A stretch of DNA of 38,786 nt, from positions 1-38,786 of the forward strand of contig PLDK01000010.1 of the NCBI GenBank assembly GCA_003135135.1. Reading direction: 5' to 3'. Under the pieces are notes generated by a model. It was not told the DNA's origin, ran no database searches, and saw only the letters and a list, made by a program, of their open reading frames with translations. This DNA comes from Deltaproteobacteria bacterium. GTDB taxonomy: Bacteria; Desulfobacterota; Binatia; Binatales; Binataceae. Made by a program: the position numbers and the translations under genes. Positions 35,317 to 37,430 of this stretch are shown here, in pieces. Numbering within the stretch: the first letter of the stretch is position 1; every line of letters starts with the position of its first letter.

Positions 35317-36120
35317 TCACCCCCGCCGCGCGATAAACCGGGCCTGCGCGATCTTGCCCGCGCGCGCCATCTCGCCGATGAAGCGGAACCCGTCGATGAG
35401 CGCGTCGAGCAGCTCGGTGCTGAACCCGACGATCCGCAGGGCATCATACCTGAGCTGCATCTCGATCATGTCGAGATATAAATCCACATGGCGTGCAAAC
35501 CTCCCGGTGTCTTCGGCGGCGCGCACCTCGCAGCCGCTTCCGGAGAGCAGCTTGACGTAACCCGCAATGTCCTCGACGTTGGCGAACATCATAATGCCGA
35601 GAAAGCGCTGCGCCTCGGAATCGCTCAGTCCCTTAGGCCCCTCGACCCAGTCGGTGAACGCAATCACGCCGCCGGGGCGAACGATGCGCGCGGCCTCCGC
35701 AATCAACTTTGGCTTGTCAGGAACGTAACACCACGCATCTTCGCTCCATATGAAATCCGCGCTGGCCGACGGCAGACCGCTTTCGCAGGCGTCGGCGAGA
35801 ACGAATCGGATTTTATCGTCCAGCCCTTCTTCGTGGGTCAGCCGCCGCCCTCGCTCGACTATCGCTTCGGTTACGTCGACGCCGATCATCGAGGCGACGT
35901 TACGAAACCGCACCAGAAAGCGCATGTCCGCGCCGTTGCAGCAACACAGATCGACCCCCTTCATCCCGGCCTTGATTCCGGCGCGATCCGCCAGATCGAT
36001 GGACGCCTTCATTCCTCCAACGTGAATTTGCTGCCCGAACATAAGTTGAAAGAGGTCGCCCGGCGCACTGCTATACACGGAGACGACATCCGCCACCCCG
36101 ACACCCTTTATAGACTTCAT
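35317..36120 (-). CDS. SAM-dependent methyltransferase linked to arsM
   Basis: The 267-residue protein is a class I methyltransferase. Motif I is VDLCCCNGADMRFL (about 56-69), with three consecutive cysteines where most enzymes have GCG; then IGVDVTEAIVERGRR (motif II), FVLADACESGLP (motif III) and a C-terminal GKIAQARF. The N-terminal LFQLMFGQQIHVGG region is typical of one small-molecule methyltransferase group near the glycine/sarcosine type, but the substrate is unknown. Its ATG overlaps the arsM stop (ATGA, 36117-36120), so it is translated with arsM. It might act on methylated arsenicals or a related product; this is inference. Confidence 0.85.
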   Translation of the reverse strand: MKSIKGVGVADVVSVYSSAPGDLFQLMFGQQIHVGGMKASIDLADRAGIKAGMKGVDLCCCNGADMRFLVRFRNVASMIGVDVTEAIVERGRRLTHEEGLDDKIRFVLADACESGLPSASADFIWSEDAWCYVPDKPKLIAEAARIVRPGGVIAFTDWVEGPKGLSDSEAQRFLGIMMFANVEDIAGYVKLLSGSGCEVRAAEDTGRFARHVDLYLDMIEMQLRYDALRIVGFSTELLDALIDGFRFIGEMARAGKIAQARFIARRG

Positions 36121-36938
36121 GATTTCCTTACGGCGCCCGGCTTGCGGGCACGGACGAAAGCGCTCATGAATTTGCCGTCCGCCATCTGCGCGAATTTCTC
36201 AAGCTCTGGATTTTCCGCAAGAAATCCCTTCGCGTCAGCCGCCGTGTAGATCCGCGTCGGTTCCATTTCGATCTGTTCGAATCCGGCCGCGGCGAGCTTC
36301 GACTGGTATTCCGACTCCTCCAGCGCCCCCGCGATACATCCGGCCCACAACTCGACGCGGCGGCGAATCTCGACGGGCATCTCACCGCGCGTCACGATGT
36401 CCGAAACAGCGAATCGGCCGCCTGGTTTCAGCACGCGAAACGCTTCGCGCAACACGCAATCCTTGTCGGCCGAGAGATTGATCACGCAGTTCGAGATGAT
36501 CACATCAACCGAATTGTCGGGCAGCGGAATATGCTCGATCTCGCCCTTGAGGAATTCGACGTTCTGGACACCCGCTTTGCGCTGGTTATCGCGCGCAAGG
36601 GCGAGCATCTCGTCGGTCATGTCGAGCCCGTACGCCTTGCCCGCCGGTCCCACTCTTCGCGCGGAAAGCAGCACGTCGATGCCGCCGCCGGATCCCAGAT
36701 CGAGCACGGTTTCGCCGGGCTTCAGCTCGGCGAGCGCGGTCGGATTGCCGCATCCCAGCGACGCGGCAAGCGCCTGGGCGGGAATCGATGCGGTCTCGCC
36801 CTCGCGGTAGAGATTCGACGTGATTGGGTTTCCCGCGGGTGCCGCCGCACCGCAGCATGAGCCGCCCTGATTCGCGACACGCCGCGCCGCTTGCGCGTAC
36901 TCCTCCCTGACTTTTTCCCTTATCGATTCATTACTCAT
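36117..36938 (-). CDS. arsM: Arsenite S-adenosylmethionine methyltransferase ArsM
   Basis: ArsM methylates As(III) using SAM, giving methylated arsenicals. The 273-residue protein has SAM motif ETVLDLGSGGGIDVLLSA and VLREAFRVLKPGGRF. Arsenic-site cysteines align with algal ArsM Cys44, 72, 174 and 224 as C28 or C29, C63, C151 (NCVINLS) and C201 (WAGCIAGAL); the last two show a constant offset of 23. A GGAGG site 5 bases before the ATG (36938) supports the start, which overlaps the arsR stop (ATGAGTAA). It lies between arsR and a second methyltransferase. Confidence 0.95.
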   Translation of the reverse strand: MSNESIREKVREEYAQAARRVANQGGSCCGAAAPAGNPITSNLYREGETASIPAQALAASLGCGNPTALAELKPGETVLDLGSGGGIDVLLSARRVGPAGKAYGLDMTDEMLALARDNQRKAGVQNVEFLKGEIEHIPLPDNSVDVIISNCVINLSADKDCVLREAFRVLKPGGRFAVSDIVTRGEMPVEIRRRVELWAGCIAGALEESEYQSKLAAAGFEQIEMEPTRIYTAADAKGFLAENPELEKFAQMADGKFMSAFVRARKPGAVRKS

Positions 36939-37302
36939 AGTGACCTCCGCGCCTGCCCGCTGTTTTACGGGCGAGGCGATTAGTGGATTGCGAAGGATCC
37001 GGCGATGCGCCCAGCGTCTGGTGAAGGTCGGCGCAACAGTCCTCGGTCATGAACCGGATCAACTTTGCGGCTTTGGGCCAATTGACTGCGTAGTAGATGA
37101 ATCGCCCTGCGCGATGCGCCGTCAGCAGCCCGCATCGGGTGAGTGCGTCCAGGTGATGAGACAGCGTGGAGCCCGGCATCTTGACCCGGCGCTTGATCTC
37201 GTCAACGCAGGTTCCATCCGGACCGGCGCGCACCAGCAGGCGGAAGATCTCGAGCCGGCCGGATTGTCCCAGCGCACTCAGTTGCGAGACAAATTCTTTC
37301 AC
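36931..37302 (-). CDS. arsR: ArsR-family metalloregulator
   Basis: The 123-residue protein has the winged helix of ArsR/SmtB: QSGRLEIFRLLVRAG, then KMPGSTLSHHLDALTRCGLL with the recognition helix, and the wing AHRAGRFIYYAV. The classical CVC metal site in the recognition helix is absent. Adjacent C89 and C90 (MTEDCC) near the end recall the C-terminal Cys pair of the Acidithiobacillus-type ArsR, so As(III) binding there is plausible. It represses, by family precedent, the arsM unit it heads. The start is GTG at 37302, in frame with an ATG at 37371 that would add 23 residues covering the promoter. Confidence 0.9.
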   Translation of the reverse strand: MKEFVSQLSALGQSGRLEIFRLLVRAGPDGTCVDEIKRRVKMPGSTLSHHLDALTRCGLLTAHRAGRFIYYAVNWPKAAKLIRFMTEDCCADLHQTLGASPDPSQSTNRLARKTAGRRGGHYE

Positions 37303-37312
37303 TACGACGATT

Positions 37313-37341
37313 CTAGTATCATCGAAATATAGACGGCGCAA
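37313..37341 (-). promoter_or_regulatory. Predicted promoter of the arsR-arsM unit
   Basis: On the minus strand TTGCGC (37336-37341) and TACTAG (37313-37318) are 17 bases apart. The AT-rich spacer TATATTTCGATGA is a plausible ArsR operator zone. arsR starts 10 bases after the -10 box. Confidence 0.45.
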
Positions 37342-37352
37342 GCGTCCGCTCT

Positions 37353-37430
37353 TCATCCCGAGCGCAGCCATTTGTCTGTCATCCCGAGCGAAGCCCTCTT
37401 TCCGTCATCCCGAGCATGCACTCTTGAAGA
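37353..37430. repeat. Three direct repeats of 26-bp period, each starting TCATCCCGAGC
   Basis: The 11-bp core TCATCCCGAGC occurs at 37353-37363, 37379-37389 and 37405-37415, exactly 26 bases apart each time. The rest of each unit is partly conserved between the first two copies (GC-AGCC). It lies directly upstream of the arsR promoter and just before the IS1380-type remnant. Confidence 0.85.

Follow-up and report, generated by a model that had tools for sequence, protein, structure and literature searches.

Several described systems border on the locus studied here. For the arsenite methyltransferase ArsM, Cys72/Cys61 are reported as arsenic-related cysteines of the Cyanidioschyzon enzyme (PMC3877260), and ArsM_AhpD_UU (NF041537) and MduS (NF045649) are named among the prokaryotic selenoproteins (PMC13188914). 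HGD-D and activase genes appear as STRING partners of selenium genes (PMC5322559), archetypical DCCPs are described as having no known biological function (PMC11971306), and DCCP, selenocysteine and Sao genes are reported for type I mlp clusters, with most clusters linked to methyl-selenium (Kountz and Balskus, PMC10418091). Here we analysed a stretch of 38,786 nucleotides from a Binataceae bacterium (Desulfobacterota, Binatia; assembly GCA_003135135.1, contig PLDK01000010.1; the whole stretch is called the window below), in which arsR and arsM are followed by a gene for a second S-adenosylmethionine (SAM)-dependent methyltransferase, MT2.

The initial annotation had suggested that MT2, with three consecutive cysteines in its SAM motif I, might bind arsenicals through these thiols or methylate a later arsenic product. 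Throughout the genomes scanned, MT2 occurs next to DCCP and selenium genes far more often than next to arsM, and it entered the arsenic operon once. Our tentative preference is therefore for a chalcogen or metalloid methyltransferase, likely acting on selenium, that was recruited once into an arsenic-regulated operon, because the DCCP/selenium and the arsenic contexts are together best explained by SAM-dependent methylation of a metalloid, most likely selenium.

Association of MT2 with DCCP and selenium genes

Scanning genomes with six peptide patterns led to 69 MT2 loci, including two outliers (L084, L085), and their neighbours were identified by comparing seed proteins with six-frame open reading frames in flanks of up to 5 kb, shorter at contig ends. 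The neighbour gene calls are simple and rough (the genes of L104 were recovered by seed search), and absences near contig ends are soft because the contigs of metagenome-assembled genomes (MAGs) are fragmented. DCCP was found near MT2 in 39 of the 69 loci, any HGD-D protein in 44 and the activator in 31, while SelA and SelD were each present in 15, SelB in 11 and any of these three in 22. Less frequent neighbours were DUF3034 proteins (10/69), SMR exporters (4/69), EamA transporters (3/69), taurine/sulfonate-type ABC ATPases (4/69) and a set of corrinoid protein, URO-D methyltransferase and RACo (2/69). These names are based on Pfam and NCBIfam runs of example proteins, which scored 427 bits for the DCCP of L036 (NF040772, cut-off 350), 255.9 for the activator (125.4), 544 for SelA (268), 349 for SelB (242) and 368.7 for the SelD present at full length in L098 (125). 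In two loci (L099, L100) the order MT2-DCCP-HGD2-HGD3-activator-SelD lies beside SelA and SelB, the latter cut by the contig end in L100, and L116 contains the same operon from MT2 through SelD. In L104 and L106, MT2 is accompanied by genes for a corrinoid protein, a RACo activator, a pair each of URO-D methyltransferases and HGD-D-type proteins, and an activator; L106 has in addition a cysteine-desulfurase-like gene that is truncated at the edge of the contig. An HxC...C pattern was seen in the first URO-D protein only, in each of the two loci.

When ArsM matches below 150 bits were disregarded, arsM together with arsR stood near MT2 in three of the 69 loci (L017, L018, L019), all from the genus of the window; the loci outside this genus are chiefly from Planctomycetota. 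No further ArsM match of at least 40 bits that exceeded the MT2 score of the same protein was detected in the 69 loci, and one was detected in L016, which lies outside this set. The initial annotation had proposed to check if the family always follows arsM, which it does not, and an arsenic role for the whole family is not supported by these neighbourhoods. The family is common without arsM, whereas a known unrelated substrate, which the same annotation had named as the second half of a refutation, did not come to light.

Co-occurrence was examined in 198 Phycisphaerae genomes (the class of G113) with E limits of 1e-40 for MT2, 1e-70 for DCCP and 1e-50 for ArsM. MT2 was found in 16 of them and DCCP in 20 (19 above the cut-off), and DCCP was present in all 16 MT2 genomes versus four of the 182 genomes without MT2 (Fisher 3.4e-20, with genomes taken as unrelated). 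The two genes lie within 2 kb of each other in 12 of the 16 genomes and on different contigs in four. SelD was detected in 15 of the 16 MT2 genomes, with G198 as the exception, versus 51 of 182 without MT2 (p 2.5e-7). ArsM showed a weak trend only, with 13 of 16 versus 101 of 182 (p 0.06; 12 and 87 above the cut-off), and no match at E 1e-50 was obtained in the MT2 genomes G125, G197 and G110. A family-wide action of MT2 on the products of ArsM is unsupported, as judged from these three genomes and the weak trend.

For SelD, all MT2 genomes that could be reached were compared, derived from 50 of the 69 loci plus 11 genomes; removal of five duplicates (G096-G100) from these 60 genomes left 55 distinct ones, 52 of them with MT2 proper, and SelD scored above its cut-off in 49 of the 52. 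SelD as an obligate partner of MT2 is ruled out by G069, G126, G141 and G198 and by its commonness in Binatia.

Some further features of these regions were recorded. DCCP is nearly confined to MT2 genomes in Phycisphaerae (16/20), and the other four genomes (G187, G215, G255, G324) all encode an AhpD-like stretch behind SelD. Among 20 SelD regions chosen by hand, SelD was followed by an AhpD/CMD-like stretch of the same strand in nine of the ten MT2-positive regions and in all nine long-frame MT2-negative regions, and not in the single short-frame control. The N-terminus of SelD in L098 (266-2026) is rich in cysteine (CICDPKQPCPC), and Pfam places an AhpD/CMD domain at the C-terminus of the same protein and finds no such domain in the SelD of L100; the NCBIfam models nearest to the AhpD-type domain include MduS and ArsM_AhpD_UU, both below cut-off. 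G119 carries two MT2 copies, one (L104, on C18) with corrinoid and HGD-D-type genes and one (L105, on C9) with a DUF3034 gene only. An MT2 paralogue of G125 (L101:4580-5371; 36% identity, motif DVCSALG) is encoded directly upstream of another DCCP and near an activator. In L039 (1608-2786), L043 and L044 (1100-2302), ABC operons upstream of MT2 encode NMT1-like substrate-binding proteins, which carry a GHVGHDHH motif close to their N-terminus; the nearest named transporters for that of L044 are of the SsuA and Sao types, below cut-off.

The pairing with DCCP in Phycisphaerae may also be explained if MT2 acts for the DCCP or corrinoid machinery, with a corrinoid, a cofactor or a protein as possible targets of its methylation, and the corrinoid genes of L104 and L106 as well as the paralogue that likewise precedes a DCCP in L101 would agree with this. 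Nevertheless, we consider it improbable: none of 23 Binatia, Myxococcota-like and gammaproteobacterial genomes has a DCCP above the cut-off (seven have weaker HGD-D matches; G003 and G004 of the 23 are without MT2), and seed searches of the 14 kb of L105, which carries an MT2 copy, matched neither HGD-D nor corrinoid genes.

Sequence, predicted fold and active site of MT2

MT2 reads GVDLCCCNGADM, with DLCCCNG as motif I, and contains cysteines only at positions 59, 60, 61, 112, 131 and 197. Pfam assigns it to general methyltransferase models only and no NCBIfam model matched above its cut-off, the best being NF045667 with 52.6 of 155 bits; in keyword searches of the open-licence literature no description of the family was found, in line with the initial annotation. 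C59, C60 and C61 are kept in 56, 55 and 54 of 56 other members respectively (C131 and C197, see Table 1), and H33, Y16, D128, W130 and Y132 are present in 56/56. This count omits the outlier L084 as well as L078 and L082 from Nitrospirota (motif DLCSALG), and the underlying 63-row alignment excludes L040, L077, L079, L081, L083 and L085. The CCC motif noticed before is thus a signature of the family, although its conservation is somewhat favoured by the search, as one of the six discovery patterns was CCCNGADM. It is also unusual, as had been said: PMT (phosphoethanolamine N-methyltransferase) relatives and the neighbouring arsM read GSG at this site, and GCG was seen in two plant PMTs. Selenocysteine in MT2 is ruled out, the in-frame stop of L040 being TAG and not TGA. 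This TAG (L040:5292-5294) lies inside the MT2 gene of a Binatota MAG and reflects a broken gene or an assembly error.

An AlphaFold model of MT2 calculated from the 63-row alignment had a pLDDT of 96.7. Among its best 50 structural matches, PMT 4kri was the top hit (Z 31.8, root-mean-square deviation (rmsd) 2.1, 255 residues aligned), and AtmM 6uv6 (Z 31.7, rmsd 1.9, 247 aligned) and the sarcosine/dimethylglycine N-methyltransferase (SDMT) 2o57 (Z 30.5, rmsd 2.2, 251 aligned) were close to it, so that the PMT/SDMT fold is predicted to cover the whole chain. ArsM structures do not appear among these 50 matches, which carries no weight as evidence. In a profile alignment with Plasmodium PMT 3uj6, Y16 and D128 of MT2 stand opposite Tyr and the Asp of the SRDAILHL region, C131 and Y132 opposite Leu and His, and CCC opposite GSG. 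Y19, D128 and H132 are the catalytic Tyr, Asp and His of Plasmodium PMT. According to the profile alignment this trio is incomplete in MT2, with Tyr and Asp retained and His replaced by Y132.

From the fold, MT2 might be an ordinary N-, S- or O-methyltransferase for an exported organic metabolite (an osmolyte, a thiol or a polyamine-like cation), with its metalloid neighbours being incidental or supplying reductant. The best folds (PMT 4kri, AtmM and SDMT) and the match of Y16 and D128 to Tyr and Asp of PMT point in this direction, as do the SMR and EamA exporters adjoining MT2 at the loci counted above and the SMR gene of L015. We regard this as unlikely, however, since the PMT His is Y132 and GSG is CCC in MT2, the SDMT model NF041675 is matched with 43.7 of 550 bits only, and the associations with DCCP and SelD would be left unexplained.

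A quick IQ-TREE tree of 63 MT2 sequences, with SH-aLRT support only, placed the four arsenic-linked sequences in one clade (SH-aLRT 99), reflecting a single gain of the arsenic linkage. The clade is nested in 19 Binatota, Myxococcota-like and proteobacterial sequences without HGD-D genes nearby (SH-aLRT 95), and on most other branches of the tree MT2 is linked to HGD-D genes; some placements are unsure due to the long branches L084, L073, L075 and L074. The MT2 of the window would belong to the DCCP-associated group of methyltransferases proposed here by descent, not by context. All listed core residues of the family are retained in the arsenic clade, while nine other positions that are at least 75% conserved in the family are uniformly altered, including T95 for C95. 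As the core is unchanged, the thiol-based new arsenic chemistry envisaged in the initial annotation is not indicated; the chemistry of MT2 in this clade is probably that of the family, in which the cysteines may take part.

The arsR-arsM-MT2 operon in Binatia

The features of the operon are summarized in Table 1. In the window arsR is followed by arsM in overlapping frames, as expected for an arsRM operon, and the overlaps of arsR, arsM and MT2 noted before (ATGAGTAA and ATGA) are indeed present in the sequence. ArsR, which contains a CC pair within TEDCCADLH, may start at the ATG at 37371 or at an in-frame GTG at 37302 (residue 24 of the longest frame), the limit given in the initial annotation. 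Directly upstream of this GTG (37312-37329) the sequence encodes an FDDTR peptide, and a similar one is encoded in some kin (L091, L096); an overlapping operator is perhaps the cause. MT2 would be controlled by ArsR and released from repression by arsenite. When P0002 was aligned with 5evj, its residues C62, C151 and C201 were opposite cysteines of 5evj; P0002 possesses all three arsenic-binding cysteines of ArsM.

Table 1. Features of the arsR-arsM-MT2 operon in the window
Feature	Positions	Strand	Basis
arsR, ArsR/SmtB repressor (P0003)	36931..37371	minus	HTH_5; NF033788 65.4 bits, cut-off 55
ATGAGTAA, arsM start overlapping arsR stop (arsR ends 36931)	36931..36938	minus	sequence
arsM, arsenite methyltransferase (P0002)	36117..36938	minus	NF008823 371 bits, cut-off 263
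ATGA, MT2 start overlapping arsM stop (arsM ends 36117)	36117..36120	minus	sequence
MT2, second SAM-dependent methyltransferase (P0001, 267 aa)	35317..36120	minus	Methyltransf_11 1e-17 (Pfam)
C59-C60-C61, motif I of MT2	35938..35946	minus	codons TGT TGC TGC; GSG in Plasmodium PMT
C131 of MT2, motif SEDAWCYV, invariant	35728..35730	minus	56/56 other members; opposite Leu of SRDAILHL, Plasmodium PMT 3uj6
C197 of MT2, nearly invariant	35530..35532	minus	55/56 other members

When 96 related Binatia genomes were searched (E up to 1e-25 for MT2 and up to 1e-45 for arsM), MT2 was present in nine, including that of the window, and in five of the seven genomes of the window's genus. All five, each from a different species, show the order arsR-arsM-MT2, a recurrence that exceeds chance; in four of them the frames of arsM and MT2 overlap (ATGA or GTGA), and in L017 they are separated by about 40 bases. 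The coupling seen in the window is thus kept within the genus. Ratios of nonsynonymous to synonymous substitutions (dN/dS) of 0.15-0.25 between MT2 of the window and its four relatives in the genus reflect purifying selection. That MT2 is a mere passenger, which landed behind arsM and has no arsenic-linked function, would be in keeping with the single gain (seen in an SH-aLRT tree only), but with the overlap in four of five genomes, these dN/dS values and the same order in all five we regard it as highly improbable.

ArsM itself was found in 34 of the 96 genomes, with MT2 adjacent in five, on another contig in three (G042, G069, G075) and without an MT2 match in 26; G004, a member of the window's genus, has arsR and arsM but no MT2 match, and G049 has MT2 but no arsM match. 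In L018 the operon adjoins Acr3-type (SBF) and LMWPc/ArsC-type genes. In L016, from another Binatia family (G075), an MT2 gene truncated at the end of the contig has as its neighbour an ArsM-like gene in divergent orientation (584-1579), the product of which scored 158 of 263 bits with NF008823 and fitted best to ArsM_AhpD_UU (171.7 of 510). This protein reads GVGNP and SNGVVNL versus GCGNP and SNCVINL in ArsM, and the readable arsenic cysteines are missing. In G069, for which no SelD or SelA match was obtained, an SMR exporter gene (L015:2320-2622) lies right downstream of MT2.

An arsenic-specific function might have evolved in the genus of the window, with MT2 further methylating the product of ArsM (for example a methylated or thiolated arsenical) or moving a methyl group to a carrier, aided by its cysteines. 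The constant order in the five genomes and the four overlapping junctions would be explained in this way, as would the arsenic genes next to the operon in L018 and the nine uniformly changed family positions; the ArsM-like neighbour in L016 also fits, though without readable arsenic cysteines and with ArsM_AhpD_UU as its best model. We nevertheless rate it as rather unlikely: most ArsM genomes among the kin do without MT2 (26 of 34) or carry it on another contig (three), G004 has arsR and arsM without it, ArsM is only weakly commoner with MT2 in Phycisphaerae, the conserved core is unchanged in the arsenic clade, and the three arsenic cysteines of ArsM are missing from MT2.

Proposed role of MT2

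MT2 would then form its own family of SAM-dependent methyltransferases for small molecules. It has a fold akin to that of the phosphoethanolamine and sarcosine/dimethylglycine N-methyltransferases and most likely methylates a reduced selenium species such as selenide or a selenol. Most carriers encode it beside DCCP, two further HGD-D proteins and an ATP-driven activator, and these proteins may turn reduced into methylated forms and back again ahead of SelD. In the lineage of Binatota, Myxococcota-like bacteria and Gammaproteobacteria, MT2 would work without HGD-D proteins nearby, on its own or next to an exporter of the SMR or EamA type. A single capture in the ancestor of the Binatia genus would have placed it downstream of arsR-arsM, where it would be made when arsenite relieves ArsR, and there the same reaction most likely proceeds on metalloid species that appear under arsenic stress.

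Several observations weigh against this role. The nearest solved relatives among the structural matches listed act on organic substrates, none on selenium, and the SMR/EamA exporters at 7 of the 69 loci, together with the SMR exporter in L015, also fit an organic cation. The Fisher tests take no account of relatedness among the genomes. In Binatia, SelD occurs in 80 of the 96 genomes, in 8 of 9 with MT2 and in 72 of 87 without, so that its presence in the MT2 genomes is uninformative; G069 contains MT2 but no SelD or SelA match, and the genome of the window (G000) and G001 have SelD but no SelA match, unlike the other five genomes of the genus. DCCP gave no match in any of the seven genomes of this genus, five of which have MT2. 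These results in Binatia limit the selenium reading, and biochemical data on members of the MT2 family are not known to us.

A more specific version appears quite unlikely to us: a metalloid cycle of two steps, in which MT2 methylates and DCCP, driven by ATP, reduces or cleaves the C-Se bond, and the methyltransferase half of which became detached under arsenic control in the Binatia genus. If true, it would give DCCP its first physiological role, and one enzyme family would serve both arsenic and selenium methylation. Since the biological function of DCCP is reported as unknown, its pairing with MT2 is the most useful result obtained here, providing a lead both on this function and on the handling of reduced selenium ahead of SelD in Planctomycetota. 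The arsenic operon of the window represents a minimal version, a single enzyme whose genome gave no DCCP match, and is open to expression and assay.

Comparison with known systems

MT2 shares with ArsM (NF008823) the class I SAM methyltransferase type and, in the genus of the window, the operon, and it is 28% identical to P0002 over 114 residues. In contrast, it reached only 42.8 bits against the cut-off of 263, has CCC instead of GSG, and in the alignment with P0002 none of the three As(III)-binding cysteines of ArsM was found in MT2. C151 of ArsM is opposite D128, C201 is outside the alignment and by eye near M176-F179, and nothing in MT2 can face C62, as there is no cysteine before motif I. 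In the Cyanidioschyzon enzyme, the three As(III)-binding cysteines are Cys72, Cys174 and Cys224. From the score and the missing cysteines, MT2 is ruled out as an ArsM or a diverged ArsM. ArsM_AhpD_UU and MduS are likewise methyltransferases, each with an AhpD domain that resembles the end of SelD in L098 (below cut-off), whereas MT2 has neither an AhpD domain nor selenocysteine.

With PMT and SDMT, MT2 shares the fold over nearly the whole length and the Tyr and Asp matched by Y16 and D128, but it differs in motif I, in Y132 for His, in the invariant C131, W130 and H33, in its gene context with DCCP and selenium genes, and in its score with the SDMT model, which is far below the cut-off. The DVU_1556 family methyltransferase (NF045667), its best NCBIfam match, covers residues 32-210 only. 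MT2 represents a methyltransferase family without an NCBIfam model at cut-off and with a SAM motif unlike that of the relatives compared. DCCP (NF040772) is a partner of MT2 and not a relative. The loci L104 and L106 resemble the type I mlp clusters in having a corrinoid protein, a RACo activator, two URO-D proteins and HGD-D-type genes, a likeness in gene content (Kountz and Balskus, PMC10418091). The same paper names Mlps, a corrinoid protein and the RACE activator as the mlp core genes, whereas MT2 is a SAM enzyme with corrinoid genes at 2 of its 69 loci only.

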